Made by a program: the position numbers and the translations under genes. A stretch of 48,911 nucleotides of DNA, from positions 1-48,911 of the forward strand of contig CALXXE010000015.1 of NCBI GenBank assembly GCA_944392605.1, read 5' to 3'. The stretch's first letter is position 1. Every line of letters starts with the position of its first letter. The DNA comes from an uncultured Clostridia bacterium. Lineage in GTDB: Bacteria > Bacillota > Clostridia > TANB77 > CAG-508. The notes beneath the pieces are model-generated. The model was given only the letters and a program-made list of their open reading frames with translations, made no database searches and was not told where the DNA came from. Shown piece after piece: positions 13,503 to 48,780 of the stretch.

Positions 13503-14771
13503 GTGAGACTAACATTTGTATGTGATTTTAAACTAAATGAAATACAAGAAAAAATAATAAGAGAGATAAAATGGCATTGTAGTAAAGTATATAATACATT
13601 TAATTATGAGGTAAGAGAAGGAAAAGTAGATGTAAGTAAAATAAAAAAAGTAAATGAAGATAGTAGTAAAATATATAAGAGTTATAGAAAAGAAAATTGG
13701 CATTCAAAATACTTACATTCACACACATTACAACAAATAATATTAAATTGTATAAGAGACCATAAATCATATTTAGCATTAAAAGAAATGTATGAAGAAG
13801 GAAACGAATATATAAAAGAAAAACCACAAAAGCCAAGTTATAAAAACAAAGGAAAAATACAAATAACATTTACAAATTATGCAATAAGGAAAGAAGGAAG
13901 AGCAATAAAGTTATCAATATCAAAAGAAATGCAGAAAAAATTTAAAGTAAAGAGTTTAAATTTTCTAATACCAAAGAAATTAGAAAAGCTAATAAATTTG
14001 GAAAGCATAAAAATGATAAAGATAGGAAAAATAACAGATGGAAAATGTAAAATGTATATAATATATGAAAAAGAAGAAAAAGAAATAGAAGTAAGTTCAA
14101 ATATAATGGCAATAGATTTAGGAATGGATAATCTAGCAGCATGTACAAATATGAATAATAGTAATAGTTTAATAATAGCAGGAGAAAGAATAAAATCAAA
14201 AATAGGCTATATAAATAAAGAAATATCAAGACTACAAGGAATACAAATGAAAATGACAGGAAGTGAAGATTTTAAAAATACTAGAAAGATAAATAAATTA
14301 TATGAGCAAATGAGAAATTATAGTAACACATATATGCATAAAACAAGTAGAATGATAATAGATTATGCAAAAGTAAATGGATGTAGTACAATAGTTGTTG
14401 GAGATATAAAAAATATAAAACAAAATATGAAAAACAATAAAAGATTTGTAGAAATGCCGTTGCAAAATCTAGTAAAGAAAATAGAGTATAAAGCAAAACT
14501 AGAAGGAATAGAAGTAGAAAAGATAGGAGAAGAATATACATCAGGAGTAAGTAGTATAGATAAAGAAGAAATAAATAGAAAATATTACAATAAGGCAAGA
14601 AGAATAAAAAGAAGACTATTTAAGACAAATAGAGGAAAAATAATAAATGCAGATATAAATGGAAGTTTAAATATTTTAAGAAAGTATATAAAAGAAATCT
14701 TTAGTCCAAACCTAGAAATAGCGATGGATATTGGTCGAGAACAACGACCATTAAAGAAAAGGGTTGCCTAA
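13503..14771 (+). CDS. tnpB: IS200/IS605-family TnpB (RNA-guided nuclease), stand-alone
   Basis: The protein is 422 residues from GTG 13503, with GGAGGTGA 5 bases upstream; a frame extension to TTG 13449 lacks a ribosome binding site. RuvC-like landmarks are visible: AIDLGMDN (RuvC-I Asp, about residue 206), VVGDIKNIKQN followed by EKIGEEYTSG (region of the second acidic residue), and NADINGSLNILRK (RuvC-III Asp, about residue 385). The usual CxxC...CxxC zinc finger is missing; the interval reads YNKARRIKRRLF instead, as in a cysteine-less TnpB/OrfB subgroup I recall. TnpB proteins use omega-RNA encoded at the element's 3' end to cut DNA. No tnpA lies beside it, so it is a non-autonomous or domesticated copy just behind rpoC. 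Confidence 0.88.
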   Translation: MRLTFVCDFKLNEIQEKIIREIKWHCSKVYNTFNYEVREGKVDVSKIKKVNEDSSKIYKSYRKENWHSKYLHSHTLQQIILNCIRDHKSYLALKEMYEEGNEYIKEKPQKPSYKNKGKIQITFTNYAIRKEGRAIKLSISKEMQKKFKVKSLNFLIPKKLEKLINLESIKMIKIGKITDGKCKMYIIYEKEEKEIEVSSNIMAIDLGMDNLAACTNMNNSNSLIIAGERIKSKIGYINKEISRLQGIQMKMTGSEDFKNTRKINKLYEQMRNYSNTYMHKTSRMIIDYAKVNGCSTIVVGDIKNIKQNMKNNKRFVEMPLQNLVKKIEYKAKLEGIEVEKIGEEYTSGVSSIDKEEINRKYYNKARRIKRRLFKTNRGKIINADINGSLNILRKYIKEIFSPNLEIAMDIGREQRPLKKRVA

Positions 14772-17835: not shown

Positions 17836-18753
17836 ATGATTTTAAAAGATTTAAAAAATAATGAAAGAGGTTCTATTACAGTACTAGTACTTGCAACAAT
17901 GTTATTGGTTACAGGAATTATATTTATTTCTTATTTTTCTATGATGAATAAAAGTAGTTCTCAAGCATCACAAATAGAAAAAATACAAGAGGAATATAAT
18001 CAATCAAATACTATGATGAGCCAAGCTTATGATGATGCTAAAGCTAATCAATACCAAACAATTAGTATACTAAAAGAAGGCGACTGGGTATATTATGAAG
18101 ATGCAACAGGAACAATTAGAAAATGTGTGGTTTTATGGGATGAAAGCTCAGGATATGGGACACAAATAATAACGATGGAAACAGTAGAAGATGTAGAAAT
18201 AGGTAACGGAACTGGAACATCTATAACATTTCAATCACCAAATGACCAGTATTTTATTAAAGCATTAGATTCATATAATAATGCAATAAGTATGTTGAAT
18301 GGAAAGGCAATGGATTATAAGAATGAGGATTATGCAATAGATGCTAGATGTGTAGGTAGCGTACCGAATGACAAAAACTCAGAAGGAAGTGGGTATTATA
18401 CGCATACTAATAGTTGGTTTTCATTATATGATAATAGATTTAAAAATGGAGATGAAAATTATAAAATAGATTTTGAACAAATGGAGAAGATAGGAGGCAT
18501 AATTGTAATAAATAAAAGCTATTGGTTTGCCTCTAGAATCGTGGACGCAATGTCAGCAGCAGTATATCCTGATATATATATGAGTTCTTCAACAATTTTA
18601 AATGGTATTGCAAACATATTTCAATTAAATTCATCTACAAAAAAATCTCTTAGTGTGACATCTGGATTACGTCCAGTATTTACATTAAAAGATGAAGTTA
18701 AAGTAACAGGAGGAAGCGGAACAGAAGATGACCCATACACATTAGGAGTATAA
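17836..18753 (+). CDS. Pilin-like / prepilin-type N-terminal membrane protein, function unknown
   Basis: The protein is 305 residues from ATG 17836, with AAAGGAG upstream and only 15 bases after gdpP, so the two are probably co-transcribed. The N-terminus reads NNERGSITVLVLATMLL: a short basic leader, a Gly, then a long hydrophobic helix (about residues 14-36) and an amphipathic helix. This is the layout of type IV pilins and TadE-like pseudopilins, but the Glu at +5 of true prepilins is missing. The C-terminal part has a YWFASRIVD segment and a GLRPVFTLKDEVKVTGGSG ending, a pattern I associate with large families of surface proteins in gut Clostridia. No pilus assembly genes are visible in the window. 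I infer a secreted, membrane-tethered protein. Confidence 0.75.
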   Translation: MILKDLKNNERGSITVLVLATMLLVTGIIFISYFSMMNKSSSQASQIEKIQEEYNQSNTMMSQAYDDAKANQYQTISILKEGDWVYYEDATGTIRKCVVLWDESSGYGTQIITMETVEDVEIGNGTGTSITFQSPNDQYFIKALDSYNNAISMLNGKAMDYKNEDYAIDARCVGSVPNDKNSEGSGYYTHTNSWFSLYDNRFKNGDENYKIDFEQMEKIGGIIVINKSYWFASRIVDAMSAAVYPDIYMSSSTILNGIANIFQLNSSTKKSLSVTSGLRPVFTLKDEVKVTGGSGTEDDPYTLGV

Positions 18754-21076: not shown

Positions 21077-22039
21077 TTGACGGAACAAAATGTGGAAAAA
21101 TTTAACAGAATTGAAAACGAGCATGATAAAGTGTTCAAAGACTTATTCTGTGATGTAAATGAAGCAGTTTATATAATAAATAGAGTTCTAAAATTAAATA
21201 TGAAATCAAATGAAATACAAAGATACACAAATAGTTTTGTAACAAGTGGGTATAAATACAAAGAAGCAGATTGTGTATATAAGAAAAAGAACGAGAGAGT
21301 ATTTTTTGTAATAGAACACCAAAGTGTGGTTGATTTTCGAATGCCATATAGGATGTCAAATTATCAAATAGAAGTAATGAGGAGTTGTGAAAGTTATAAG
21401 AATACAAAAGATAATAAAGAATCTTTAGTTATTGGAATAGTATTATATACAGGAAGAAAAGAATGGAATGCTGAATTGTATATTAGAAATATACAATATA
21501 AACTAGAAGATGGGGCAAGACTTGTACTTGGTGATAACAAGACTTTAGGTAACTATTCTGTACTAGATGTAAATAAATGCACAGAAGAAGAATTGTTAAA
21601 AGACGAAGGACTAATTAGTAAAGTAATGTTAATAGAAAAGGTAAGGAAAACAGAAAAATTAGGAGAAATACTAATAAGAATGATAAAATATTTAGATGAA
21701 AATGGCTTAAAATATATAAAAAACCTAATAAAGAATATTATGGTGAATGACTTAAGCAAAGCAACAAGAGAAAAAATTTTAAAATTATATAGAAAAACAA
21801 TAGAAGGGAAAGGAAGTGAAGAAGAAATGGAATTAGCAATAACAAGAACAATAAGAAATGAAATAGAAGGTGTAAGAAGGAAAGGAAGAAGAGAAGGAAG
21901 AAAAGAAGGTAGAAAAGAAGGTAAGATAAGTGTAGCTAAAAATTTATTAACAATGGGATATAGTATAGACCAGGTAGGAAAAATGGCAGAGCTTAATGAA
22001 AGCGAACTAAAAGAGTTAAAAGAAAAAGTAGGGAAGTGA
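21077..22039 (+). CDS. Rpn-family recombination-promoting nuclease / putative transposase (PD-(D/E)XK)
   Basis: The protein is 320 residues from TTG 21077, with AAGGAGGA (21063-21070) upstream. The N-terminal domain is typical of Rpn/Transposase_31 proteins: HDKVFKDLF, then YKEADCVYKK and VFFVIEHQS, giving the Asp and Glu-x-Gln of a PD-(D/E)XK active site, and MPYRMSNYQIEVMRS. Rpn proteins cut DNA and promote recombination in RecA-independent assays. After about residue 250 there is a low-complexity Arg/Lys-Glu-Gly repeat (EGRKEGRKEG), then a short helical segment (MGYSIDQVGKMAELNESELKELKE). The reading frame ends where a 220-base tandem duplication shifts the frame, so the original C-terminus may have differed slightly. 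It is flanked by its own promoter and terminator, consistent with a mobile gene. Confidence 0.9.
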   Translation: MTEQNVEKFNRIENEHDKVFKDLFCDVNEAVYIINRVLKLNMKSNEIQRYTNSFVTSGYKYKEADCVYKKKNERVFFVIEHQSVVDFRMPYRMSNYQIEVMRSCESYKNTKDNKESLVIGIVLYTGRKEWNAELYIRNIQYKLEDGARLVLGDNKTLGNYSVLDVNKCTEEELLKDEGLISKVMLIEKVRKTEKLGEILIRMIKYLDENGLKYIKNLIKNIMVNDLSKATREKILKLYRKTIEGKGSEEEMELAITRTIRNEIEGVRRKGRREGRKEGRKEGKISVAKNLLTMGYSIDQVGKMAELNESELKELKEKVGK

Positions 22040-33180: not shown

Positions 33181-36100
33181 ATGGGAAAATTTAAGGGAAA
33201 GTTAAAGAGTTTTAAGGAGATTGTTTTAAATCGCAAAAAACAAATTGGTGTTATAGCAATAATTTTAATAATAATTGCAATAGCTACGACATTAATTTAC
33301 AAAAACATTGAGCAAGCAAGAATGCTTGCAAATAATCCAGAACTTGCAAAAGCAATGACATATGACCAAGTTCAAGAGGGAGAAGAAATAGTAGAAGGAA
33401 CAGATGGTAAGGTTAAGTTTGATGCCTTCTTTCTTCGTGACTTAAATGGAGATGGTTATGCAGAGAGTATAAGAGGAACATCAAAAGAAATAGGAAAAGA
33501 AGATACCTTGTATATGGAGATAAGTGTAAATACATCAGGGTACCTTAAAGATGCAAAAATCACAATAAATGATGGAAATTATTATTTCCAAACAGCACTA
33601 CCAAAAGATGATGAACTAAAGGATAATTATATCGGAAGTAACATAAAAACAATTGAATTTAACCAATTAAACAATGGAACACAGAAAATGTTAACAGGAG
33701 CAGTAAAAGCTTCTATTAATAATAACATAAATGATTATAGTGAAGTAAATAGCATAACTTTAACAGGAACATATGTAACAGAAAATAATAAAGAGATTCC
33801 AATAACAAAAACAGTCAAATTTAATATAGATTGGTATGGAACAACAAAAGCTACTATAACTAATACAAGTAGTAGTTATAATAATTATACTGATTTAGAT
33901 GATAGATTAGATGAAGAAAATGGACAAGTAACATTAGATTTTTCTATAAAAACACAAGAAACAGCAAATGAATTAATAATAAAAAGTAATCATGTAGAAG
34001 CAGAGATACCACAATTAAACGGATATAATCCAATTAGTGTAACATATACAGGAAGTAATGCTATATTTAATTATGATGAGCAAAGTAAAAAAGTAACAAT
34101 AGTTAGAGAGTCAAAAGTAAGTACAGATGGAACGGTAACAAGTACTTTATCTAGAAGTAATTCATATTCAATAAGAATTATTTATCCAATAGAAGCATAT
34201 CAGAGTATAGGAGAAGAAACAATAACAATAAGAATACCTGTTAGAACATATTATGAAGGATACAACAACTCTAGCAAAGAATTTGAGAATCCATATGTAT
34301 CAAATACAGCATTAGAAACTATAGTAGTAAATTACAGAAGACCAACAGGTGAGGTAGCGAGGTTTGATGTAACAGTAGGTAAATCTTCGATTGTTTCAAA
34401 GGAAAAACCATTGAGAATATATAATGGCTTAAGTGATGTAGAAAAAGATGATACATATCAAGTGAAGTGGGAAGTATATACTGGAGTAGAAGTTGCAAAA
34501 AGTAATATTGTTATGAAAGAAACTGAAAATGGAAAAACACAAATTGCAGATAGTTTTATAAAAACAAACTCAAACAAGGAAAGCATGGAAAATATAACTA
34601 CTAATATAGGAATAGGAATTTCAGGAGCTGATGGATTACTTAAAGAAGATGGATGGATTAAAGTATATGATGATAATACTGGAGATTTATTAGTTACGTT
34701 TACTAAAGAAAATTGGAATGATTATACAAGCAATAATCCATATATATATGAATTACCAGTAAAACATATAAGAATTGAAACAAGTGATGCAAATGCTGAT
34801 TCTTATTTTTATATATATAATATTAAAGAGTTAGATGATAATTATATAACGACGAATTATACAAGAGATGAATTTAATGATTTACAATATATTGAATCTA
34901 ATTTAGTAGGATATATAGGTGGAACATATATAAATACAGATACAAATCAAGCGAGTTACCAAGCACCATATTCAATAGCAGGAATAGGATTAAGCAATAA
35001 TACAATTTCTACACAAACAACGGAAGAAAACGAGAAGATAATAATAACAGCACATTATAACAGTTCAAGTAATCAAGTAGGCTGGACAGATGGAAGTTTT
35101 TTAGTGAAATTTCCAAAAGAGATTCTAATGGCAGAAATTAATAATGTAGAGATAAACAATAGTAATGTAGATATTACAAGTTATGAATTAATAGAGCAAG
35201 ATGGAATAAAATTTGTTAAGGTAAACACAGAAAATAGGAATGATACTCCACAGACTTATAGTATAACAATAGATTTAGATATAACGTCAGATCCAAGAAT
35301 ACCAACAAAGACAGGAGAAGTTGAATTATATGCATCAAATGAAGAATTTTGTGATTATCGATATAGTGAAAATGATATTTATGATGTTAATGATAATCTA
35401 AATACATATGAAAAAATAAATTATGATTCTACAGAATTAAATATGATTTCACCAAATAGTTTACTTACTAACCAAGTAGGAAGTAATTATGATAACAAAG
35501 GAAGTATTGTTGTATCACCACAAATAGCAGATGTAAGACCAGCATATGGCATAGTAGACCAAGAAAATGAAAAAGAAGCGACAATAGGAGTACAAATAAG
35601 AAATAATTATTCAAGTACTATAAGTGAAATAGTAATATTAGGAAAAATTCCTTTTGAAGGAAATTCATATGTATTAAGTGGAGAAGATTTAGGGTCTACA
35701 TTTACTACAAAAATGACAAATGCAGGAATACAAATACCAGAAGGGCTACAACAATACGCAACTGTATATTATTCAGAAAATGAGAATCCAGATAGAGATT
35801 TAACTAAAGCGGAAAATGGATGGAAAACAGCAAATCAAATAACAAATTGGGATAATATTAAAACATTTTTAATTGACCTTGGTAATTATGTTATGCCAAC
35901 AGGAGCAGAATATGTATTTAATTACGTTATAAAGATACCAAATGGTTTAGAGTTTAACCAAGCATCATTTAGTCACCATGGAGTATACTTTAGTTTAGAT
36001 ACAGACCAAGGAAAATATAGAACACAAGTAGAACCTAATAAATTAGGATTTAGGATAGCAGAGAAGTTTAATTTAGAACTAACAAAATACCAAACAGGAA

Positions 36101-39100
36101 GAGATAAATTAGTAGCAGGTGCTACATACAGTTTTACAGATGAAGGAACAGGAGAGACAAAAACAGCTGTAACGAATAGTGAAGGAAAATTAACAATAAA
36201 TAATTTATATGCAGAGAAAGCATATATAATAGAAGAGATAAAAACACCAGATGACTATGAATTAAACAGTAATAGAATCAGGTTTATTGGACACGTAGAT
36301 GAAAATGGTAACATTACAATAGAAAAGACAGAAGGAACAACAAAAGAAGATATAGGGGTAGTAAAAGAAGAAGGAGAAGATTATAAAGTAACAGTAAAAG
36401 TAGAAGATGAAGTAAAAGCAAGTATAAAAATACATAAGACAGAACAAGAAACAGATACACAAGTACAATATGTAAAATATAAACTAACGGGATATAACCT
36501 ATCTGAAAACGGAAGAATATTAACTACAAATATTAATGGAGAAGCTACAATAAATGGATTATCAGTAAACCAAGAATATACTCTAACTGAAACAAAAGCA
36601 GAAGGGTATTATTTGGCAGACCCTATAATTTTCAAAATAATCAACGAGAATGGAACTTATAAATTGGAGACAACAGCAGGGGCATTTAAAGAAAGTACAA
36701 TAACGGAAGAAAATGGTATACCAACAATAACATTAGACTTAGAAGATGAAAAGATACCGACATATAGTTTACAAATAATAAAACAAGAAAAAACAATTAA
36801 TACAGAACTTACGGAAGACCAAGAACAAGCAGAAAGTACAAACAATGCAGAACAAGTAACATATCTAGCAAATGCTAAATTTAAATTATATAAAAACGAA
36901 GAAGAAATAGGAGAATATATAACAGACGAAACAGGAACAGTAACAATAGATAATTTATACCAATATATAGAAGGAAAAAATGAAGAAGCAACATATACAT
37001 TAAAAGAAGTATTAGCACCAGAAGGATATGCAAAAGTAAAAGATATTACATTTAAAGTACAAAATACAGACGGTACTTTAAGTTTATTAAATACGGACGG
37101 AACAGAAGAAAAATACGAAGTAGAAGGAACAACAATAAAATTAACAATAGAAGATAGTCCATCATTTAGACTTGTTAAAAAAGACAAAGAAACACAAGAA
37201 CCAATAGCAAATGTTAAGTTTGCAATATATAATGTAGAAAATGGAGAGATACCTGCAACAAATAGTAAAGGAGAGACATTAGGAACATTAGAAACAATAA
37301 ATGGAAGAGAGTATTATACGCTTACAACAGATGTACAAGGAGTATTAACAGCAGACTTAAAAGAAGGACTTTATAAAGCAGTGGAGATAGAAGCACCAGA
37401 ACAATATGACATAGAAAACCAAACTTACTATTTTGGTATAGGGGCATCAAGAGAAGGAAAAGAAGAAATGACAGAAATATGGGCAGATTCAATAGGAGGT
37501 ACTGGAGGAGATTATGTTAATTCTATAGCAAAAACGAGTGATGGAGGTTGTATAATAGGAGGCTATTTTTATAGTTCAACAATTAAAGTTGGAGATGAAA
37601 TAATTATTAATAATGGTTATAGAGAAAACTATGAACCTACCAATGATGGTATAATAGTAAAATATAGTGAAGAAGGGAAAGTAGAATGGAAAAAGACTAT
37701 TGGAGGAAATAATGAAGATCATATATATGCTGTAGCAGAAACAAGTGATGGAGGTTATATAGCAGGAGGAGAGTTTAGGGACACAATTCAAGTAGGAGAC
37801 AAAACAGTATCAGTAATGGAAGATAGTTATCAAGGAAATTCTGATGGTATAATAATAAAATATAATAGTGAAGGAGAAGAACAATGGATAAGAACAATTG
37901 GAGGAAAAAGTGAAGACGCTATACAAGCACTGACTCCAACAAGTGATGGAGGATTTATAGCGACAGGAATAATAGGAAGTCAAGAAGCTTATATAGGAAA
38001 CGAAATACTAACGGCCAATGGTTATAAAGATATAGTGATAATAAAATATAATAGTAAAGGGGAAGTAGAGTGGACAAATCAAATAGGAGGAAGTAGTTCT
38101 GAAATTATAAATTCAGTGGTAGAAACAAGTGATGGAGGTTATATAGCAGGAGGATATTTTTCTAGTGATGAAATTAAAATAGAAAATGAAACTGTAACAA
38201 ACAATGGTTCTTCTGATGGATTAATAGTAAAAGGCAATAGTAAAGGAGAGGTAGAGTGGATAAGATCAATAGGAGGAAATGAAAGTGAACAAATTAAATC
38301 CATAGCAGAAACAAGTGACGGGGATTATATAGCAGTAGGAAATTCTTCTAGTGATGAAATCAAAGTAGAAAATGAAGTTGTAACAAATAATGGAGATTAT
38401 GATGGTATAATAATAAAATATAGTAATAAAGGAGATATAAAATGGGCTAAAAATATAGGGGGAAGTGATTATGATTATATTAGTTCAGTAGTGGAAACAA
38501 ATGACGGTGGATGCATACTAGGAGGATATTTTAGAAGTGACAATGTTATAATAGGAAAAGATACTATAACAAGCATAGGATCTTCAATAATAAAATGTGA
38601 TAAAGAAGGGGAATTAAAAACAATAAATCAAATAGAAGGAGAAATAGAATCAATAGCATTAACGAGTTCTGAAGGAATTTTAATAGGAGGAAACTTTGGA
38701 AGAATACTTAAAGTAGGAGATGAAAAATTAACGAGTAATGGATTGGATGATGGAATGGTTATAAAACTTGAAAATCAAGAAATGCCTATTCCGCTTGTTT
38801 CTGATGCAAAAGTAATAGGAAAAAATAGTAGTGACACAATTAATTCAGTAAGAGAAACAAATGATGGAGGTTATATAGTAGGAGGATACTTTTCAGAAAC
38901 AATTCAAGTAGAAAATGAAGAATTAAAAAGTAATGGAGGTATTGATGGCTTAATAATAAAATATAATAATTTAGGTGAAGTAGAATGGTCTAAAAATATA
39001 GGAGGAAATTATGATGATTATATCAAATTAGTAACTCAAATGAGTGATGGAAGCTATATTGCAATAGGATATTTTAGAAGTGACAGTATAAAAATAGGAA

Positions 39101-42100
39101 GCGAAAAACTAATAAATAATAGTTATAATGCTCCTTATTATGATGGCAATTATTATGATGGATTAATAATAAAATATAACAATTTAGGTGAAATAGAATG
39201 GGCAGATTCATTTGGAGGAAGTTATGATGATCAAATTCAATCAGTAACAGAAACGAGTGATGGAGAAATTCTAGTGGGAGGAAACTTCGATAGTGGAAGT
39301 ATTGAAATAGGAAATGTAAAATTAACAAATAATAGTGAAAGTATATATGATGGGGATGGATTAATAATAAAATATAACAATTTAGGTGAAGTAGAATGGG
39401 CTAAAAATATAGGAGGAAGTTATGATGAAGGAATTAATTCAGTAACGTCAATAAAAGATGGTGGAATAGTAGTAGGAGGATTTTTCGAAAGTGATGAAAT
39501 TCAAGTAGGAAACGACAGACTAATAAATAAAGGTAATTATGACGGAATGATAATAAAATATAGTAATAGTGGAGTTGTGGAATGGGTAGATTCATTTGGA
39601 GGAAATTCTTCTGAATCAGTAAATTCAGTAACAAAAGTAAGTGATGGAGGAATTATAATAGGAGGTTATTTCCATAGTGAAGAAATACAAATAGAAAATG
39701 AAACTCTAATCCATAATAGTAGTAGTAGTTATTATCCTGATGGATTAATAATAAAATATAACAATTTAGGTGAAGTAGAATGGACAGAATCATTTGGAGG
39801 AACTGGTTATAGCAATATATACGAAATAACGGAAACAAGTGAAGGAGAGATTTTAGTAGGAGGATATTTTTCAGGTGGAATTAAAATTGGAAAAGAATCT
39901 ACACAAAGTAAGGGAGAATATGATGGTCTAATAATAAGATATAATTCGAATGGAAAAATACAATGGGTTAAGTCAATTGGAGGTAATGAAAATGATCATA
40001 TTTATTCAGTAGCTGAAAATAAAGATGGAAAAGTTATAGCAGTAGGAGATTTCTATAGTGATATAATAGGAGATAATGAACACATATTAGAAAACCAAGG
40101 AGGTTACGATGGAATGATACTTGAAATAGAAAATAAAGTAGGAGTTCCAGAAGTACAAGAGTTGGTTGTTGAAAATGATAGGAAAAAGTTTAATATAACA
40201 ACGGATGTAAATGAAATAGATGGTGTAAAAGGTGGAAGTATATCTGGAGAAGATATTTCTCCATATGAGAAAGTTAAATATGGAGATAATAGTTCTAAGT
40301 CAATAATAATGACACCAGAAGAAGAATATGAAATAATAGGAATAACAGTAAATGGAGAAGAATGGAGGTTTGAAGGAAATTCAGATGGAACATATACAAT
40401 GCCAACATTTGAGAATATGACAGAAGATAAACATATAGTAGTAACATATGCATTAAAAGATAACAAGATAATAATTAATAAAGTAGATAGTGAAGATGAT
40501 ACACCACTAGCAGGAGCAACATTTAAATTAGATCAATTAGATGAAAGGGCAAATCCAGATAATGAGAGAATAATAGGAGATATTGTAGCAAATGGAAAGG
40601 AATATCCAGATGCGAATATAGAAAAAGGAGAAGTTAATGGAGTATTAGGACAGTTAACAAATAATGGAACATATTATTTTGTAGAAAATGAAGATGGAGC
40701 ATTAGTTCCAACAAATAGTAAAACATATCAAACAGCAAATGGAGGAAGTAATGGAGTAGGAGATACAACAGCAAATTCATATATACCAATAGACTTAAGT
40801 GGAAAAGATGGAGAATATGTAGTAGTAGTAAATGCAAGCGTGTCAAGTGAGAGTTATGATTATGGATATGCAACAGTAAATCAAAATACAATAGCACCAA
40901 CATACAGTACTAGTAACGGAAGATTTATGTATATATCAGGAACAGTAGATTCAAAAGATTATACATCAACAACAGTATTACAAGGAGGGCAAACATACTA
41001 TTTACATTTAGGATATAGAAAGAGTAGTAGTACAGATACAAATGAAGACCAAGTAGTAATAAATAGTGTAAAAATATATGAGAATAAAGAGATATCATAT
41101 GGCTTCGTGGATAATGGTAAAGGTGGATATGAATCAAATAATCAAGGAGAAGACAGTACAGTAGCAAATTCATACATTCCAATAGATTTAACAAATTATT
41201 CGGGAAAATACAATTTAACAGTAAATGCAAATGTATCAAGTCAGAGCAATTATGACTATGGTTATGCAACAATAAAAAATAATACCACAGCACCATCTTA
41301 TATTAGTAATACAGGAAGGTTTATTTATATATCAGGAACGAATAAAGAGGATATAACACCAACAGACTATACGACTGTATTACAGGGTGGACAAATGTAT
41401 TATTTACATCTTGGATATTATAAGAATTATACTACTTCGTTAGGAGATGATAAGTTCACAGTAAATAGTATAAAAGTAACTTTAAATGATTCTGAACTTT
41501 ATCATTCAGAAGAAATAACGACTAATAGTTTAGGTCAAGCAATAACACAAGTTCCTTTTGGAAAATATCAAATAACAGAAATAGTTGCACCAAAAGGGTA
41601 TGAGTTAAATAGTAAACCAATAGAAGTAGAATTTAGAGAAAATGGAAATCATGAATTTACGATAGAAAATAATAAAACAGCTAAAGTATTAGTACATCAT
41701 TATTTAAAAGATGAAAATGGAAGATATACGACAACAAAAGTTGCGGAAGATGAATTACTAGAAGGAAAAATAGGAGATAAATATACAACAAGTCCAAAAC
41801 TAGATTTAAGTAAGTATGAACTAGAAAAAAATGAAGAAGGAAACTATGTAACACCAGAAAATGCAGCAGGAGTGTATGAATCAGGAGTAATAGAAATAAT
41901 ATACTATTATGAGGAAAAAGAAATACCATTAACAGTACATCACTATATAGAAGGAACAACAGAAAAAGTACCATTAAAAGATGGAGAAGCAGGAGAAGAT
42001 GTACTAGATAGTGGAAAAGAAGGAGAAGAATATCATACAAGTGCAATTGATGATAGTTTATTAAGTGATGACTATGAATTAGTAGAAATACCAGAAAATA

Positions 42101-45100
42101 GTACAGGGACATATAGTGGAGAAGAAGTAACAGTAACATATTATTATAAGAGAGTAGAAAGACAAGTAATATTAAATAAATATGATGAAGATGGAATTTC
42201 TCCACTAGAAGGTGTAGGATTTGAAATACAATTAGAAGAAGATAAAGCAAAAGAAGAGAGTTTAAAACAAATAGTAGGAGAATTAATATCAAGTGGAAAT
42301 TACTACTTTGAAAATCAAGGTGGAAAATTAATATCTAATAATCAACAACAAAATAGTACAACAGCAAATAGTTATATAAAAATAGACTTAACAGAAAAAG
42401 AAGATATGGTATTAAAGATAAATGCAGAAGTATCAAGTCAAAGTGGTTATGATTACGGATATGCAATAGTAAATCAAAGTACATCAAATCCGTCATATTA
42501 TACAACGACAGGAAGAGTATTTAGAATATCAGGACAGGTAGAAGCAAAAGATTATGAATATACATTAACAGGAGGAAAAGTATATTACTTACATTTTGGA
42601 TATTATAAAAATTCTAGTACATCAAGTTATGATGATACATTTACAATAAATAGTATTTTAATTAATGATATAAATATTCTAGATTCAGGAAAAATAAAAG
42701 TTACAACAGATAGTAATGGACAAATAAAAGCTAATTTAGAATCAGGAGAATATATAGCAACAGAAGTAGAAGTACCAGAAGGATATGATTTACCAGACGA
42801 TAATGAAACTGAATTTACAGTAAATAAATCAGATGATGTTGTAACATTGAATGTAACAAACACAAAGACAAAAGGAACAGTAATAACACATTATTATATA
42901 GAAGGAACAGAAGAAAAAGTACCAAATAAAGATGGTACAGTGGTAGAAGATATAGTAAATACAGGAAATATAGGAGACATATATGCAACAAAAGAAGCAG
43001 AAAATGTAGCACCAAATTATGAGTTTGTAAGAACAGAAGGAGAAACAAGTGGAGAGATAACAGAAGGAACAACAGAAGTAATTTACTATTATAAATTAAA
43101 AGAACCTGTTATAGAAACACCAGTTATAACAAAAGAAAGTAGTGTTGAAAAAGTAACAGAAGTAGGACAAACAATAGATTATACAATAAACTATAAGGCA
43201 AGTATAGATGATTATATAGGAAATGGAACAGTAACAATAGTAGATTATTTACCATATGAGATAGATGAAAGTAAAGAATATGAGTTAGCAGGAGGAGAGT
43301 ACGATAAAGAAAATAAAACAATAACATGGACAGAAGAAATAGGTGAAATAGATGCCTTTACTAATGGAGAATATGATGTTGATATAACAAAAGAGATAAG
43401 TTTAGTGTATAAAGATGTAGATCCAACAAGTGAAGTTGTTTCAAATAGAGTAACAGGAACTGTAACATTAAAGACACCAAAAAAAGAAGATACAACAGAA
43501 ACTACTAAAGAAATACCAGCAGAATACTTAGTAAGTATTCCAGTAACAAAAGTATGGTCTGATAATGAAAATGCTGCTAAGAAGAGACCAAGTTCAGTAA
43601 GAGTAGTAGTTAAAAATGGAACAGAAGAAGTAGCACAAGAAGAATTAAGTGATAGCAATAGTTGGACATATACATTTAATAATTTACCAAAATATGACGA
43701 AACAGGAAAAGAAATAAGTTATGTAATAGAAGAACAAGAAGTAACTTCAGGAGAATTATATTTCTATAATGCAAATATAAGTGGAAGTATAACAAATGGA
43801 TATACAATAACAAACACATTTGAAGTGCCAGATGAAAAAGTAAGTGTAAATGTAAGTAAGACATGGGTAGATACAACTGACCAACAAAATAGGAGACCAG
43901 GTTTTGTAACAGTTCAGCTAAAAGCAAATGAAGTAAATGTAGAAGGAAAGACATTAGAATTAAATGAAGGAAACGAATGGAAAGGAACATTTACAGACCT
44001 AGATAAATACGATAGTTCAGGAAATGAAATAAACTATACAGTAGAAGAAAAAGATACAGAAAACATATTCTATACTGTAGAAAATAGTAGTGTATCAGGA
44101 AACATGGAAAATGGATATGTAATAACAAATACATTTACAAGACCAGAAGATAAAATAACATTAATGGCAAATAAAGTATGGAATGATAATACAGAACAAG
44201 CTTTACAAAGACCAGGAAGCATAACATTAGTTGTTAAAAATGGAGATACAGAAGTAGTAAGTAAAGTAGTAACTAGCGATAATTTAGTAGAAGGAACAAC
44301 AAATAAATGGTCAGTAGAGTTTACAGGATTAGACAAATATGATGAAAATGGAGATGAAATCCAATATACATTAGAAGAAAGAGAAACAGAAGAAGGAACA
44401 TTACATTTCTATGAAGCAGAAGAAAGTAAAGTAAACTTTGAAGATAATCAAGCAACAATAAGAAACAACTTTGTAAAACCAGATGATACAACAAATGTAA
44501 AAGTAACAAAGGTATGGAATGATAGTGATAATGTAAATGGAAGAAGACCAGGAAGTATTGTATTAAAAATAACAGGAAATGGACAAGAATATGAATATAC
44601 AGTAGAAGAAGCAGATAATTGGACACATACATTTACAGACTTACCAAAATATGATGACAATGGTAAAGAAATAGAATATACAGCAAGTGAAGAAGAAGTA
44701 GATGAAGGAAACTTAAAATTCTATACAAATGATGGTGTAAGTGGAAGTATGACAGCAGGATACACAATAACAAATACATTTACAGTACCAGATGATAAGA
44801 TAGAATTAACAGTAAATAAAGTTTGGGTAGATAATGAAACACAAGCTCAAAGAAGACCAGATACTGTAGTAATAAATGTACTTGGAGAAAATGGAACAAT
44901 TGTTGCTAGTCATGATTTAAATGTTTCTGAAGAAGAAAGCTATACATTTACTAACCTTCCAAAATATAATAGTGAGACAGGTAAAGAGATAAATTATACT
45001 GTTGAAGAAAAAGAAAAAACTGATGGTGGCTTATATTTCTACACAGGAGTAGTAGGAAATGTGGAAAACGTAAGTGAAAATAGCAAAGAAGTAACAATAA

Positions 45101-48100
45101 CAAATACATTTAAGAAGCCAGAAGATACAACAGATGTAACAGCAACAAAAGTATGGGAAGACAACAATGATGAAGCAAGTAAGAGACCAGGAAGCATAAA
45201 ATTATTGTTAAAAAACGGAACAGAAACTGTAGGAGAGCAAGAAGTAACAGGAGACACTAATACTTGGACATATACATTTAAAGGAGTAGATAAGTATAAT
45301 GAAAATGGACAAGAAATAGTATATACAGCAGATGAAGCAGAAGTAAAATCAGGAGATTTACAATTCTACAACAAAACTATAAGTGGATTAACAGTAACAA
45401 ATGAATTTACCAAAGATACAACAAAAGTAAGCGTACCAGTAACAAAGATATGGGTAGATACAGAAGAACAAGAATCAAGAAGACCAGGAAGTGTAAGAAT
45501 TATATTAAAAGCAAATGAAATAAAGGTAAAAGAATATGATTTAACAGGAACAGGAGATACATGGAATTATACATTTGAAGACTTACCAAAATATGATAGC
45601 TATAATAATATAATAAATTACACAGTAGAAGAGGAAGAAGTAAGTAGTGGAGGATTAAAATTCTATAGTAGTTCTGTAGATGGAACAACAATAACAAATA
45701 CATTTACAAGACCAACAGATGTAATAAGTATAGAAGTAACAAAGAAATGGAATGACCAGGATAATGTATATGGAAAAAGACCAGTATCAGTAAGAATAAA
45801 TGTAAATAATGGAACAGACGTAGTACAAACAGCAATTGTTACAAAAGATAATTTATGGACATATACATTTAAGAACTTACCAAAATATGATGATAATGGT
45901 AATGAAATTCTATATACAATATCAGAAGAAGAAGTAATAGAAAATAGCTTATATTATTACACAGGAGAATCAAGTTTAGTTACAAACAAAGCAGGAGAAA
46001 CAGATGTAAAAGAAGCAACAATAACAAACAACATGACAAAAATACCAGGAACAGTAGTAATAAAATATAAAGATAAATATACAGGAGGAGAAATTTCAGA
46101 GAAGAAGACAAAAGAAGGAATAGTAGGAGAAAGCTTTGATGTAACAGAAGATGTAAAAGAAATAGAAGGATATACATTAGTAGAAGAACCAGAAGAAAAG
46201 ACAGGAACATATACATCAGAGACACAAGAGAAGACATACTACTATGCAAAAGACACAAGAGTAATAGTAAAATACCTAGAAAAAGATGATACGCCAGAAG
46301 ACGATAGCAATAATAAAGTATTGGCAGATGAAATAATCTTAGGAGGATACGAAGGAAAGAGTTATACAACAAATAGTAAAGCTATTGATGGATATACATT
46401 AGTAGAAACAAAAGGAAACCTAAATGGAACAATGAAAAAAGAAGAACAAGTAGTAGTTTACTATTATGCAAAAGACACAAAAGTAATAGTTAAGTACTTA
46501 GAAAAAGATGATACACCATTAAATACAAGTGATAATAAAGTATTATTACCTGAAAAGACAATAGAAGGATATGTAGGAAAAGAGTATACAACAACAGGAG
46601 AAGAAATACCTAACTATACATTAGTAGAAAAGACAATAAACTATGAAGGAACAATGACAGAAGATGTGATAGAAGTAGTATATTATTATTTAAAAGATAC
46701 AAGTGTAACTGTTAGATATTTAGAGAAAGATAGTACAGAAAGTGACTCTGATAATAAAGAGTTAGTACCAGATATAACCATAGATGGATATGTAGGAAAA
46801 GATTATGAAACAGAGCAAAAACAAATATCAGGATATACGTTTGTAGAAGTAAAGGGTGAAGTTTCAGGAAAGATGACAGAAGAGCCAATAGAAGTAATCT
46901 ACTACTATGCACAAAATACAAAAGCAAAAGTAGAGCATATAGATAGAGAAACAGGGGATATCTTAAAAGAAGAAACTACTAATGGAAAAGTAGGAGACTT
47001 ATTTGAAACACATCCAGAAGATTTTGAAGGATATGTATTAGTAGAAGAACCAGAAAATCCTGATATCATAATGGATAAGACAGGAAATCAAGTAGTGAAA
47101 TACTATTATGCACACGTATCAGCAGGAGTAATAGAAAAACATATAGATATTATTTCAGGAGAATTGTTAGATAGTGCTGAACATGAAGGAAACGAAGGAG
47201 ATCCATATGATATATCTTCTAAGACATTCGATGGATATGACTTAGTAGAAGAAGACGAAGAAGGAAACAGTATGCTTCCTGATAATAGTACAGGAACAAT
47301 GAAACGTGATAAAGTAATAGAAGTTAAATACTACTACATAAAGAAAGCAACAGTTGTAGTTAAATATGTAGATGAAAATACAGGAGAAGAAATAGAAAAA
47401 GAAGAAATAATAGAAGGACATGAAAATGATAAGTATGAGACAGAAGAAAAAGAAATAGAAGACTACAATTTAACAAAAACACCTGACAATAGTTCTGGAA
47501 CAATGATAATTACTAAAAATCCTGATGGAACATATGACACAGAAATAGAAGTAATATACTATTATAAGAAGATATCAGGAGGAGTAATAGAAAATCATAT
47601 AGATGTAGATACAAATAAGAAACTAGCAACAGAAGAACATAAAGGAAATGTAGGAGACGAGTATGATATACCATCAAGAGAATTTTCCGGATATGATTTA
47701 GTAACAGATATGTTACCAGACAATAGTAAAGGAACAATGAAAGAGCAAGAAATAGAAGTAAATTACTATTACAAGAAGAAAGCAAAAGTAGTTGTTGAGT
47801 ACATAGATAAGGGAACAGGAGAAAAACTAGATGAAGAAGAAATAAATGGACATTTAGGAGATGAATATAAGACAGAAGAAAAGACATTTGATGGATATGA
47901 TTTAATAGAAAAACCATCAAATGGAGAGGGAGAAATGACAGAAGATGAAATAGTAGTAAAATACTATTATGCAAGAAAAACAGAAGTAGAAGTTAAGTAC
48001 TTAGAAAAAGGAACAGAATATGAAGTAGCAACAGGAGAGACAATTCAAGGATATGTAGGAGATAAGTATGAGACAGAGCAAAAAGATGTACCATATTATA

Positions 48101-48780
48101 AGTTTGTAGAGAAAACAGATAATTGGGAAGGAAAAATGACAGAAGGAAAAATAACAGTAATATACTACTATGAGAAAGAAATATTTAATCTTGGTGTAGA
48201 TAAATGGGTAGAAAGTGTAAATGTAAATGGAATAAGTAGTCCAGCACAAAGTATAAGTTCTAGTGATGAAATCTATAAAGTAGATATACATAGAAGCAAA
48301 GCAGATACAGCAGATGTAAAAATAACATATAAGATAAGAATAACAAATAAAGGAGAGCTAGAAGGAACAGTAGGAAAGATAACAGATATAATACCAGCAG
48401 GAACGACTTTCAACCAAGAAGATAATGATATATACTGGGATAATAATAATGGAGTATTAACAACAGAAGATTTAAAAGATGAAATAATTGAAGCAGGAGA
48501 ATATAAAGAAATAGAAGTAACATTAAGAGTAAATGAAGGTTCAGACAACTTTGGACAAAAAGATAACATGGTAATACTAACAGAATTAAATAACCCAGCA
48601 GGATATGAAGATATAGACAAAGAAGATAATAATGATACATCAAGTATGATATTAACAATAGCAACAGGATTAGACAGAAACGATAGAATAGTAATAATAG
48701 GAATAGTACAAATAGTATTAGCAATTACAATAGGATTATTACTAAGCTATGAGAAAAAAGAAAAGAGGACTAAAGAATAA
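33181..48780 (+). CDS. Giant multidomain adhesin: SpaA/Cna-B, twin propeller, jelly-roll and MucBP modules
   Basis: The protein is 5199 residues with AAAAAGGAG upstream. Approximate residue order: basic N-terminus; membrane helix (19-41); Ca-binding-like DLNGDGYAE and beta-rich adhesin domains (75-955); four SpaA-type domains (960-1425); fourteen propeller-like repeats (1434-2322); an InlB-B-repeat-like domain (2327-2425); a SpaA domain split by two jelly-roll-like inserts (2428-2830); two MucBP-like domains; a second split SpaA domain with one insert (2992-3227); one MucBP-like; a DUF11-like domain (3311-3434); eight Cna-B (3447-4286); ten MucBP-like (4289-4998); a membrane-proximal domain; a membrane helix (about 5170-5188) and a Lys/Glu tail. 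Cna-B domains keep Lys, Glu and Asn for isopeptide bonds. There is no LPXTG and no sortase nearby. I infer a very long surface stalk binding glycans or other cells. No frameshift is seen across 15.6 kb. Confidence 0.93.
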   Translation: MGKFKGKLKSFKEIVLNRKKQIGVIAIILIIIAIATTLIYKNIEQARMLANNPELAKAMTYDQVQEGEEIVEGTDGKVKFDAFFLRDLNGDGYAESIRGTSKEIGKEDTLYMEISVNTSGYLKDAKITINDGNYYFQTALPKDDELKDNYIGSNIKTIEFNQLNNGTQKMLTGAVKASINNNINDYSEVNSITLTGTYVTENNKEIPITKTVKFNIDWYGTTKATITNTSSSYNNYTDLDDRLDEENGQVTLDFSIKTQETANELIIKSNHVEAEIPQLNGYNPISVTYTGSNAIFNYDEQSKKVTIVRESKVSTDGTVTSTLSRSNSYSIRIIYPIEAYQSIGEETITIRIPVRTYYEGYNNSSKEFENPYVSNTALETIVVNYRRPTGEVARFDVTVGKSSIVSKEKPLRIYNGLSDVEKDDTYQVKWEVYTGVEVAKSNIVMKETENGKTQIADSFIKTNSNKESMENITTNIGIGISGADGLLKEDGWIKVYDDNTGDLLVTFTKENWNDYTSNNPYIYELPVKHIRIETSDANADSYFYIYNIKELDDNYITTNYTRDEFNDLQYIESNLVGYIGGTYINTDTNQASYQAPYSIAGIGLSNNTISTQTTEENEKIIITAHYNSSSNQVGWTDGSFLVKFPKEILMAEINNVEINNSNVDITSYELIEQDGIKFVKVNTENRNDTPQTYSITIDLDITSDPRIPTKTGEVELYASNEEFCDYRYSENDIYDVNDNLNTYEKINYDSTELNMISPNSLLTNQVGSNYDNKGSIVVSPQIADVRPAYGIVDQENEKEATIGVQIRNNYSSTISEIVILGKIPFEGNSYVLSGEDLGSTFTTKMTNAGIQIPEGLQQYATVYYSENENPDRDLTKAENGWKTANQITNWDNIKTFLIDLGNYVMPTGAEYVFNYVIKIPNGLEFNQASFSHHGVYFSLDTDQGKYRTQVEPNKLGFRIAEKFNLELTKYQTGRDKLVAGATYSFTDEGTGETKTAVTNSEGKLTINNLYAEKAYIIEEIKTPDDYELNSNRIRFIGHVDENGNITIEKTEGTTKEDIGVVKEEGEDYKVTVKVEDEVKASIKIHKTEQETDTQVQYVKYKLTGYNLSENGRILTTNINGEATINGLSVNQEYTLTETKAEGYYLADPIIFKIINENGTYKLETTAGAFKESTITEENGIPTITLDLEDEKIPTYSLQIIKQEKTINTELTEDQEQAESTNNAEQVTYLANAKFKLYKNEEEIGEYITDETGTVTIDNLYQYIEGKNEEATYTLKEVLAPEGYAKVKDITFKVQNTDGTLSLLNTDGTEEKYEVEGTTIKLTIEDSPSFRLVKKDKETQEPIANVKFAIYNVENGEIPATNSKGETLGTLETINGREYYTLTTDVQGVLTADLKEGLYKAVEIEAPEQYDIENQTYYFGIGASREGKEEMTEIWADSIGGTGGDYVNSIAKTSDGGCIIGGYFYSSTIKVGDEIIINNGYRENYEPTNDGIIVKYSEEGKVEWKKTIGGNNEDHIYAVAETSDGGYIAGGEFRDTIQVGDKTVSVMEDSYQGNSDGIIIKYNSEGEEQWIRTIGGKSEDAIQALTPTSDGGFIATGIIGSQEAYIGNEILTANGYKDIVIIKYNSKGEVEWTNQIGGSSSEIINSVVETSDGGYIAGGYFSSDEIKIENETVTNNGSSDGLIVKGNSKGEVEWIRSIGGNESEQIKSIAETSDGDYIAVGNSSSDEIKVENEVVTNNGDYDGIIIKYSNKGDIKWAKNIGGSDYDYISSVVETNDGGCILGGYFRSDNVIIGKDTITSIGSSIIKCDKEGELKTINQIEGEIESIALTSSEGILIGGNFGRILKVGDEKLTSNGLDDGMVIKLENQEMPIPLVSDAKVIGKNSSDTINSVRETNDGGYIVGGYFSETIQVENEELKSNGGIDGLIIKYNNLGEVEWSKNIGGNYDDYIKLVTQMSDGSYIAIGYFRSDSIKIGSEKLINNSYNAPYYDGNYYDGLIIKYNNLGEIEWADSFGGSYDDQIQSVTETSDGEILVGGNFDSGSIEIGNVKLTNNSESIYDGDGLIIKYNNLGEVEWAKNIGGSYDEGINSVTSIKDGGIVVGGFFESDEIQVGNDRLINKGNYDGMIIKYSNSGVVEWVDSFGGNSSESVNSVTKVSDGGIIIGGYFHSEEIQIENETLIHNSSSSYYPDGLIIKYNNLGEVEWTESFGGTGYSNIYEITETSEGEILVGGYFSGGIKIGKESTQSKGEYDGLIIRYNSNGKIQWVKSIGGNENDHIYSVAENKDGKVIAVGDFYSDIIGDNEHILENQGGYDGMILEIENKVGVPEVQELVVENDRKKFNITTDVNEIDGVKGGSISGEDISPYEKVKYGDNSSKSIIMTPEEEYEIIGITVNGEEWRFEGNSDGTYTMPTFENMTEDKHIVVTYALKDNKIIINKVDSEDDTPLAGATFKLDQLDERANPDNERIIGDIVANGKEYPDANIEKGEVNGVLGQLTNNGTYYFVENEDGALVPTNSKTYQTANGGSNGVGDTTANSYIPIDLSGKDGEYVVVVNASVSSESYDYGYATVNQNTIAPTYSTSNGRFMYISGTVDSKDYTSTTVLQGGQTYYLHLGYRKSSSTDTNEDQVVINSVKIYENKEISYGFVDNGKGGYESNNQGEDSTVANSYIPIDLTNYSGKYNLTVNANVSSQSNYDYGYATIKNNTTAPSYISNTGRFIYISGTNKEDITPTDYTTVLQGGQMYYLHLGYYKNYTTSLGDDKFTVNSIKVTLNDSELYHSEEITTNSLGQAITQVPFGKYQITEIVAPKGYELNSKPIEVEFRENGNHEFTIENNKTAKVLVHHYLKDENGRYTTTKVAEDELLEGKIGDKYTTSPKLDLSKYELEKNEEGNYVTPENAAGVYESGVIEIIYYYEEKEIPLTVHHYIEGTTEKVPLKDGEAGEDVLDSGKEGEEYHTSAIDDSLLSDDYELVEIPENSTGTYSGEEVTVTYYYKRVERQVILNKYDEDGISPLEGVGFEIQLEEDKAKEESLKQIVGELISSGNYYFENQGGKLISNNQQQNSTTANSYIKIDLTEKEDMVLKINAEVSSQSGYDYGYAIVNQSTSNPSYYTTTGRVFRISGQVEAKDYEYTLTGGKVYYLHFGYYKNSSTSSYDDTFTINSILINDINILDSGKIKVTTDSNGQIKANLESGEYIATEVEVPEGYDLPDDNETEFTVNKSDDVVTLNVTNTKTKGTVITHYYIEGTEEKVPNKDGTVVEDIVNTGNIGDIYATKEAENVAPNYEFVRTEGETSGEITEGTTEVIYYYKLKEPVIETPVITKESSVEKVTEVGQTIDYTINYKASIDDYIGNGTVTIVDYLPYEIDESKEYELAGGEYDKENKTITWTEEIGEIDAFTNGEYDVDITKEISLVYKDVDPTSEVVSNRVTGTVTLKTPKKEDTTETTKEIPAEYLVSIPVTKVWSDNENAAKKRPSSVRVVVKNGTEEVAQEELSDSNSWTYTFNNLPKYDETGKEISYVIEEQEVTSGELYFYNANISGSITNGYTITNTFEVPDEKVSVNVSKTWVDTTDQQNRRPGFVTVQLKANEVNVEGKTLELNEGNEWKGTFTDLDKYDSSGNEINYTVEEKDTENIFYTVENSSVSGNMENGYVITNTFTRPEDKITLMANKVWNDNTEQALQRPGSITLVVKNGDTEVVSKVVTSDNLVEGTTNKWSVEFTGLDKYDENGDEIQYTLEERETEEGTLHFYEAEESKVNFEDNQATIRNNFVKPDDTTNVKVTKVWNDSDNVNGRRPGSIVLKITGNGQEYEYTVEEADNWTHTFTDLPKYDDNGKEIEYTASEEEVDEGNLKFYTNDGVSGSMTAGYTITNTFTVPDDKIELTVNKVWVDNETQAQRRPDTVVINVLGENGTIVASHDLNVSEEESYTFTNLPKYNSETGKEINYTVEEKEKTDGGLYFYTGVVGNVENVSENSKEVTITNTFKKPEDTTDVTATKVWEDNNDEASKRPGSIKLLLKNGTETVGEQEVTGDTNTWTYTFKGVDKYNENGQEIVYTADEAEVKSGDLQFYNKTISGLTVTNEFTKDTTKVSVPVTKIWVDTEEQESRRPGSVRIILKANEIKVKEYDLTGTGDTWNYTFEDLPKYDSYNNIINYTVEEEEVSSGGLKFYSSSVDGTTITNTFTRPTDVISIEVTKKWNDQDNVYGKRPVSVRINVNNGTDVVQTAIVTKDNLWTYTFKNLPKYDDNGNEILYTISEEEVIENSLYYYTGESSLVTNKAGETDVKEATITNNMTKIPGTVVIKYKDKYTGGEISEKKTKEGIVGESFDVTEDVKEIEGYTLVEEPEEKTGTYTSETQEKTYYYAKDTRVIVKYLEKDDTPEDDSNNKVLADEIILGGYEGKSYTTNSKAIDGYTLVETKGNLNGTMKKEEQVVVYYYAKDTKVIVKYLEKDDTPLNTSDNKVLLPEKTIEGYVGKEYTTTGEEIPNYTLVEKTINYEGTMTEDVIEVVYYYLKDTSVTVRYLEKDSTESDSDNKELVPDITIDGYVGKDYETEQKQISGYTFVEVKGEVSGKMTEEPIEVIYYYAQNTKAKVEHIDRETGDILKEETTNGKVGDLFETHPEDFEGYVLVEEPENPDIIMDKTGNQVVKYYYAHVSAGVIEKHIDIISGELLDSAEHEGNEGDPYDISSKTFDGYDLVEEDEEGNSMLPDNSTGTMKRDKVIEVKYYYIKKATVVVKYVDENTGEEIEKEEIIEGHENDKYETEEKEIEDYNLTKTPDNSSGTMIITKNPDGTYDTEIEVIYYYKKISGGVIENHIDVDTNKKLATEEHKGNVGDEYDIPSREFSGYDLVTDMLPDNSKGTMKEQEIEVNYYYKKKAKVVVEYIDKGTGEKLDEEEINGHLGDEYKTEEKTFDGYDLIEKPSNGEGEMTEDEIVVKYYYARKTEVEVKYLEKGTEYEVATGETIQGYVGDKYETEQKDVPYYKFVEKTDNWEGKMTEGKITVIYYYEKEIFNLGVDKWVESVNVNGISSPAQSISSSDEIYKVDIHRSKADTADVKITYKIRITNKGELEGTVGKITDIIPAGTTFNQEDNDIYWDNNNGVLTTEDLKDEIIEAGEYKEIEVTLRVNEGSDNFGQKDNMVILTELNNPAGYEDIDKEDNNDTSSMILTIATGLDRNDRIVIIGIVQIVLAITIGLLLSYEKKEKRTKE
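37478..40145 (+). repeat. Fourteen ~60-70-residue repeats forming two likely seven-bladed propellers
   Basis: Each unit follows the pattern IGG...(I/V)xSVxETSDGGYIxGGYF...NNG..DGLIIKYNxxGEVEW. The first seven end near 38800 with a degenerate unit (VIKLENQEMPIP); the next seven start at 38806 and end with a second degenerate unit (ILEIENKVGVPE). DNA identity is strikingly high among units 8-12 (the AATTTAGGTGAAGTAGAATGG stretch recurs in shortened forms), suggesting recent expansion. Confidence 0.85.
44170..48780 (+). repeat. Right copy of ~4.6 kb direct repeat (adhesin C-terminal modules)
   Basis: This is collinear with 431-5044. The membrane-proximal domain and anchor are nearly identical. 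Upstream of 44170 the right copy has two Cna-B modules (from 43540 and 43850) where the left copy has one. Confidence 0.9.

Follow-up and report, generated by a model that had tools for sequence, protein, structure and literature searches.

The window analyzed here is a 48,911-nucleotide stretch of DNA from an uncultured Clostridia bacterium; it corresponds to the complete contig C15 of a metagenome-assembled genome of 2.0 Mb (MAG; 38 contigs, 88.7% complete, 7.25% contaminated). Listing and translation of its open reading frames (ORFs) reveal one ATG-started frame at 33181–48780 on the forward strand that encodes a predicted giant adhesin of 5199 residues. The frame is free of internal stops, and 5199 open codons at a GC content of ~24–33% are far beyond chance. 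A first-pass annotation of this DNA had described the frame as a multi-module surface protein. The frame is intact, and its modules were found with Pfam and with our own hidden Markov models (HMMs), built from the giant in the window and its paralogue.

The reading of SpaA, Cna_B and MucBP as surface stalk domains also holds. SpaA and Cna_B occur in tandem, and they are the stalk pair most often found together in fibrillar adhesins (PMC8286594, PMC9210967). The Lys-Glu-Asn/Asp triad expected to form isopeptide bonds is conserved in columns 7, 69 and 96 of Cna_B and columns 7 and 57 of SpaA. Pfam and our HMMs find 13 copies in all of MucBP, a mucus-related domain. The Internalin J model NF033187 has its best stretch in the MucBP region and reaches 234 bits, compared to a cut-off of 1700. 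DUF568 was disregarded: it scored above its cut-off (26.5 versus 25), but with no separate stretch within the Cna_B region. The 14 blades of the head form two sets of seven joined by a short linker at residues 1866–1876; 12 of them have a W..IGG-type start, and the seventh and eighth, with an altered start, were detected by HMM. Beta-prop_EMC1_N, DUF5122, Reg_prop and WD40 all scored under the Pfam cut-offs in the giant. To our knowledge, the propeller head belongs to none of the listed adhesive families.

Table 1. Modules of the giant adhesin gene, from N- to C-terminus, and its sister gene in the window.
Feature	Residues	Position	Strand	Evidence
Giant adhesin gene	5199 aa	33181..48780	+	ORF listing, translation
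N-terminal hydrophobic segment, signal-anchor or signal peptide	22-38	33244..33294	+	Hydropathy; model helix 2-51 at low predicted local distance difference test score (pLDDT)
N-terminal rod (NTD), beta-sandwich array, without Pfam family	75-956	33403..36048	+	AlphaFold2 model, pLDDT 82.7; fold matches
SpaA1	963-1079	36067..36417	+	Pfam PF17802, own HMM
SpaA2	1081-1191	36421..36753	+	Pfam, own HMM
SpaA3	1195-1327	36763..37161	+	Pfam, own HMM
SpaA4 first part, last strand unmatched here	1328-1426	37162..37458	+	Own HMM
Head propeller 1, 7 blades	1434-1865	37480..38775	+	Blade pattern, own HMM; SBBP-type likeness under cut-off
Head propeller 2, 7 blades	1877-2319	38809..40137	+	
Proposed post-head last strand of SpaA4, including Asn2332	2325-2335	40153..40185	+	Alignment, profile; residues 2321-2332 at low pLDDT
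InlB-like B-repeat (our own label)	2333-2426	40177..40458	+	Own HMM; conserved in A3
SpaA5 first part	2428-2456	40462..40548	+	Alignment against uninterrupted SpaA of L032 and L067
Two jelly-roll-like units within SpaA5	2508-2636, 2642-2770	40702..41490	+	Own HMM, alignment, model
SpaA5 second part	2771-2831	41491..41673	+	Pfam, own HMM, alignment
MucBP x2	2833-2990	41677..42150	+	Pfam, own HMM
SpaA6 with one inserted jelly-roll unit	2994-3230	42160..42870	+	Pfam, own HMM
MucBP	3231-3305	42871..43095	+	Pfam, own HMM
Short unit (own label TEP), without Pfam match	3308-3433	43102..43479	+	Own HMM
Cna_B x8	3451-4287	43531..46041	+	Pfam PF05738, own HMM; Lys/Glu/Asn columns conserved
MucBP x10	4289-4998	46045..48174	+	Pfam, own HMM
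DUF11	5000-5148	48178..48624	+	Pfam PF01345, TIGR01451, own HMM
LTIATG motif, hydrophobic segment, basic tail	C-terminal	48652..48777	+	Hydropathy, motif
Sister giant adhesin, C-terminal part, open at contig start	1680 aa	2..5044	+	ORF listing, own HMM, identity to giant

We examined 39 proteins, which represent at least 11 genera within a single family, and the N-terminal plan recurs in them: NTD, four SpaA domains, head and then, where the sequence extends so far, the InlB-like repeat. These proteins (relatives are given L numbers) have an NTD match beyond model position 800 and four SpaA hits; others were left out, as was L101, a copy of L032. SpaA1–3 finish in a strand ..[VIL]x[VIL]E(D/N) right before the next domain (..ED in the window), and their HMM matches reach column 105 or beyond of 110 in 35, 28 and 34 of the 39 proteins, compared to two (L077 and L118) for SpaA4. 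In the other 37 proteins the SpaA4 match ends before the last strand. The isopeptide lysine and glutamate of SpaA4 are kept in 36/36 and 38/38 aligned rows. A strand-like motif (ELVVEN in the window) follows the head, also where the head consists of GLUG repeats, and the equivalent of Asn2332 is near-invariant, with N in 31, D in one and V in one of 33 sequences. Scored with a profile of the SpaA1–3 last strands, the post-head site is among the top 10 of the head region in 28 of 33 cases, 21 of them with N/D in register (random stretches, 24%). In a structure model that starts after SpaA4, residues 2321–2332 are the sole stretch with pLDDT below 50, as expected because the partner of the strand is missing. 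The first-pass annotation had placed a propeller block in series between two arms. The propellers are indeed central, but the head is likely inserted in the SpaA4 fold, and a plausible Lys–Asn staple would close its base.

Propellers form the head in most relatives. Ten proteins, the giant of the window among them, have 14 blades, L099 has 21, and L115 and L116 have seven each. GLUG repeats form the head in seven relatives, L070, L077, L112, L113, L117 and L118 by Pfam and L078 by our own HMM. L118 was relabeled from “other” to GLUG on later evidence, L069 and L114 carry no label, and L080, L110 and L072 were scored as propellers on two, four and two blades, respectively. On an NTD tree of the 39 proteins, 37 of them labeled, the propeller/GLUG label requires three changes, compared to 5.6 on average for shuffled labels (0/500 as low as three). 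The label is thus clustered on the tree, and head swaps are therefore repeated but infrequent. In 11/11 pairs compared, which are not independent of each other, the head is less conserved than the NTD, SpaA1–4 and the InlB-like repeat, with identities of ~29–68%. The orthologues L073 and L074 are 67–96% identical per 100-residue block, but 27–57% over residues 1501–2300. L073 and L072 share 77–93% up to residue 1000 and 62–97% from residue 2501, but only 19–47% over 1001–2400. From these sequence comparisons, the head is an exchangeable cassette. In L113, a second block of 17 GLUG repeats lies past the head, at residues 3094–3655 between SpaA and jelly-roll units. Two giant frames are broken in the propeller region (L079 at 7749–7756 and L031 at 9463–9494), through either sequencing error or real decay. 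Phase variation by slippage was considered and rejected: the gene in the window has no A/T run of eight or G/C run of six, and no simple repeat is seen at either break.

We favor, with moderate confidence, the explanation that the giant is a fibrillar adhesin anchored at the cell surface, whose swappable head is socketed in SpaA4. The chain would be exported with its N-terminus at the membrane, and a rod of adhesin-type beta-sandwich and SpaA domains would lead to the head. The two seven-bladed propellers, ~890 residues together, would sit in a loop of SpaA4 before its last strand, and an intramolecular Lys–Asn bond would staple the head base. Tension would then run along the covalent SpaA/Cna_B rod and bypass the propellers. 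Two further SpaA domains would carry the jelly-roll units likewise, and the eight Cna_B and thirteen MucBP domains would form the stalk that connects to the TG motif, the hydrophobic segment and the basic tail. The head would bind a target, for which a surface polymer such as a glycan is the likeliest candidate, and relatives have replaced this cassette, with propellers or GLUG repeats as their heads.

Hydrophobic segments are present at residues 22–38 and near the C-terminus, as described in the first-pass annotation, but the C-terminal segment, which had been called a membrane helix, may leave the membrane, with a TG motif before it and a basic tail after it. A TG dipeptide followed by a hydrophobic stretch and basic residues is found at 26 of the 27 complete C-termini; termini truncated at a contig end or a frame break were excluded, and the L106 row, a contig end, was not used. 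In the window the motif is LTIATG, with the hydrophobic stretch and basic tail of a sorting signal behind it, and the relatives L035 and L116 have LPTTG and SPQTG. LTIATG and its tail are probably a degenerate sorting signal. Several points weigh against wall anchoring by this route. The canonical LPXTG of sortase substrates is absent from the C-terminus in the window, and L114 ends in VPNTEK without TG, its hydropathy of 1.69 falling just short of the cut of 1.7. The genome itself has nine sortase matches, but co-occurrence with sortase is uninformative, as 58/58 genomes of the genus sample have one. Alternatively, both termini could be anchored, the N-terminus by a signal-anchor and the C-terminus in membrane or wall, in a looped protein with the head near its apex. 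This arrangement is compatible with a socketed head and would be akin to antigen I/II, in which the N- and C-terminal parts pack and lift the central head; P1 is a known case of centrally placed adhesive domains (PMC8286594). None of 41 giants has a strict AxA site after its N-terminal hydrophobic stretch, but the test is uninformative, since seven control ORFs lack the site too. The model helix 2–51 and the hydrophobic C-terminus would suit a loop, yet confidence in the helix is low and the two arms would be very unequal in length; we consider this arrangement somewhat unlikely.

A conventional fibrillar adhesin with its domains in series is a rather unlikely alternative. SpaA4 would be merely shortened, the head would follow it, Asn2332 would belong to the start of the B-repeat, and there would be no staple. 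Conservation does run on into the B-repeat, with residues 2339–2341 and 2351–2357 equally conserved, but residues 455–466 of the model are unstructured although the whole B-repeat was included. A mere shortening would also have to account for the early stop of SpaA4 in 37/39 proteins together with the retention of its lysine and glutamate, and there is a precedent for domain insertions (PMC12617251). Other observations count against the socket and in part favor domains in series. In the window itself the post-head site matches the last-strand profile weakly, scoring –2.3 bits and ranking 9 of 1004, and the blades hold better-scoring chance look-alikes. L077 and L118, the two proteins whose SpaA4 match gets to the model end, both have GLUG heads, and truncation is less clear there. 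GLUG heads (e.g. L070, L077, L112, L117 and L118) start with a common EINYIEDL-like stretch that resembles a SpaA last strand; this opening may explain the two full-length matches. In L110, L116 and L078 an additional SpaA hit precedes the head, which means that the socket can be a SpaA other than the fourth, and the fourth SpaA of L116 closes in a complete last strand. Finally, the head could be a spacer.

The best structural match of the propeller is CylK, an alkylating enzyme with a seven-bladed propeller of the same blade type, and the first-pass annotation had suggested a binding or enzymatic head. Beyond this likeness we find no support for an enzyme, which we regard as very unlikely: the match is limited to CylK residues 249–654, and divergence to ~29–68% identity along with replacement by unrelated GLUG repeats suits binding more than a conserved reaction. 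The LipL53 family of SBBP-repeat lipoproteins also has the blade type of the head, and its model NF047494 scores 131.7 bits against a curated cut-off of 400. SBBP and CylK proteins are not known to carry an adhesin stalk. A comparison of the propeller with plasmids gave 32 records, all below 60% identity, the best being from Aneurinibacillus at 28%. Elsewhere in the genome (L083, G000:C22:8500-12500), a minus-strand ORF of 663 residues, whose N-terminus resembles that of type IV pilins by eye (KGITLIALVITVTVLIILA), contains three blades of the giant’s propeller type, i.e. the same blade on a pilin-like carrier.

The NTD, a region of ~950 residues, has no Pfam match at E 0.01. Over 21 NTDs, Pfam gave three families with one member each (E 0.004–0.009), none of which matched the NTD of the window. 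Its model gives domain-sized fold matches to cohesin, pilin and adhesin sandwiches, among them the C-terminal domains of antigen I/II; integrin chains also rank high, with root-mean-square deviations of 6–26. By sequence, the NTD has a single match in the PDB (E 0.31), which we regard as chance. Absence from the fold-match lists was not counted as evidence.

The insertions noted in the first-pass annotation as jelly-roll inserts were borne out. A SpaA domain that is whole in L032 and L067 is split in the window by two ~130-residue units, and SpaA domains after such a unit start at model column 20 (median, n = 27), compared to column 3 without it (n = 8). By alignment, these units are insertions too. 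The term “jelly-roll” comes from the first-pass annotation and is backed by strand content alone. By sequence the units have no match in the PDB, and a list of structural matches was filled by propellers; Foldseek gives rows with GH101 enzymes, which are only a lead. In L077, nine jelly-roll units follow each other at residues 2317–3485, between the InlB-like repeat and a SpaA part.

The first-pass annotation had proposed a search for the domain order in related Clostridia genomes, and the same module order is found elsewhere. NTD relatives occur at E ≤ 0.001 in 23/58 genomes of the genus sample, 16 of them over at least 900 of 1020 positions, and at E ≤ 1e-20 in 136/195 genomes and 32/39 genera of the family sample, where many of the listed matches cover only the second half of the NTD in frames of ~1,700 residues. 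At E ≤ 1e-100 they occur in 29/191 genomes of the order sample, two of which are from a second family, and the class sample contains two (of 341), both from the same genus as the window. Six loci came from scanning named genome contigs, and each belongs to an uncultured Clostridia or Clostridium MAG. Stretches were taken from the genus (17), the genome itself (two) and other genera of the same family (20); the longest open frames reach 7428 residues (G150). The InlB-like repeat is usually followed by SpaA, which may or may not carry a jelly-roll unit, and then by MucBP; in L071, L073–L076 and L110 MucBP comes next directly, and the distal stalk is variable among relatives.

The two halves of the giant differ in their closest relatives. 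Its NTD is 61% identical to that of the paralogue on contig C2 of the same genome and 72–73% to those of L102, L099 and L031. The last 900 residues are 87% (87.4%) identical to the sister ORF in the window, 67% to L073 and L075, whose NTDs are 43% identical to that of the giant, and 37% to L102. Judged by these identities, the head half and the stalk half have discordant histories. Either of two processes would account for this, a homogenization of the stalks in each genome or a swap of halves among genes. Sister DNA (window 2–5044 and G000:C2:171589-182662) is 82–93% identical to that of the giant from ~position 1301, but, when compared in a fixed register, not before it. At the end of contig C2 lies a frame of at least 3691 residues that follows the same plan but carries another head (31% head identity). 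C15:1-77 and C2:181332-181408 are identical, and C2 stops shortly before another such place; a single gene split at a repeat may make up both the C2 end and the C15 start. The gene that follows ORF 2–5044 here, presumably rpoB, has a giant immediately upstream of it in G018 (L079) as well. As a caveat, C15 begins within, and stops just past, adhesin genes with common repeated DNA. An assembly chimera of frame 33181–48780 is nevertheless extremely unlikely even though the contig starts in a repeat-rich sister gene and the C2 end resembles the C15 start, because long open frames in other genomes have their modules in the same order (e.g. 4,319, 4,517, 5,614 and 5,643 residues); on this comparison the architecture is neither a chimera nor unique. 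More tentatively, and with the outcome finely balanced, we propose a family of ~2,500–7,400-residue adhesins that is spread through one Clostridia family and also represented in another family of the same order. One SpaA domain would be a dedicated acceptor socket for non-homologous heads (single, twin or triple propellers, or GLUG repeats), closed by the conserved post-head Asn strand, which would staple the base of each head covalently, and stalks would be homogenized per genome.

Other genes in the window include an OrfB_IS605/Cas12f1-like TNB (TnpB-type) gene found by Pfam at 13449–14771, with genes upstream of it that we take by eye to be rpoB and rpoC, and a Transposase_31/YhgA-like gene at 21077–22039. 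The gene at 17836–18753 encodes 305 residues with a prepilin-like N-terminus (GSITVLVLATMLLVTGIIFI, by eye) and has no Pfam match at E 0.001.

The first-pass annotation had not recognized the module order as a described architecture. Among the full-text literature matches listed, with bioRxiv and most subscription papers outside their scope, we found no published description, but the plan recurs across a family of Clostridia with exchangeable heads. The giant shares with fibrillar adhesins (PMC8286594, PMC9210967) an adhesive head on stalk domains. Adhesive domains in Firmicutes are mostly N-terminal (PMC8286594), whereas the head of the giant is internal, behind an N-terminal arm of ~1400 residues, and consists of a propeller or GLUG block. 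The words “propeller” and “MucBP” are absent from the main text of both papers, as is “Glug” from that of PMC9210967, where alone it was searched for. In the pilins RrgA and Spy0125, a large domain is inserted between the isopeptide-contributing residues of Cna folds (PMC12617251); the inserts named there are vWFA, thioester and CnaB-like domains, compared to a twin propeller in the giant. Antigen I/II (P1) likewise has a central head between N- and C-terminal parts (PMC8286594). In Bap1 and RbmC of Vibrio cholerae, a beta-propeller serves as a polysaccharide-binding module alongside a beta-prism, and RbmC also has mucin-binding domains (PMC10102183), but their propeller is single and eight-bladed. 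Giant1–5 of Apilactobacillus kunkeei, which are shaped by recombination (PMC12863079), and a 7651-residue Mobiluncus adhesin (PMC10619420) are also very large repetitive Gram-positive surface proteins. Unlike the giant in the window, Giant1–4 have an N-terminal beta-solenoid and the Mobiluncus adhesin has 51 Ig-like repeats; “propeller” and “isopeptide” are absent from the main text of PMC12863079.

RrgA and Spy0125 are pilus subunits of ordinary size, Bap1 and RbmC are not known to have an isopeptide stalk, and antigen I/II has a helix-based stalk and no known SpaA socket or propeller. The general Pfam scan of the giant, which included no dedicated search for them, turned up no A-repeat or P-repeat family of antigen I/II. 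The parts and the class, fibrillar adhesin, are known; what would be new is a swappable head held in a socket and borne by a covalent stalk. If the proposed socket is real, it would be a natural modular display platform in which a covalent socket bypasses load, and a template for the stable display of large folded domains. It would also offer a testable case of a change in adhesin specificity without rebuilding of the stalk, and the discordant histories of head and stalk make recombination at defined borders measurable. It would further suggest that large surface proteins are present in uncultured Clostridia for which automated annotation would give only the names of the stalk modules.
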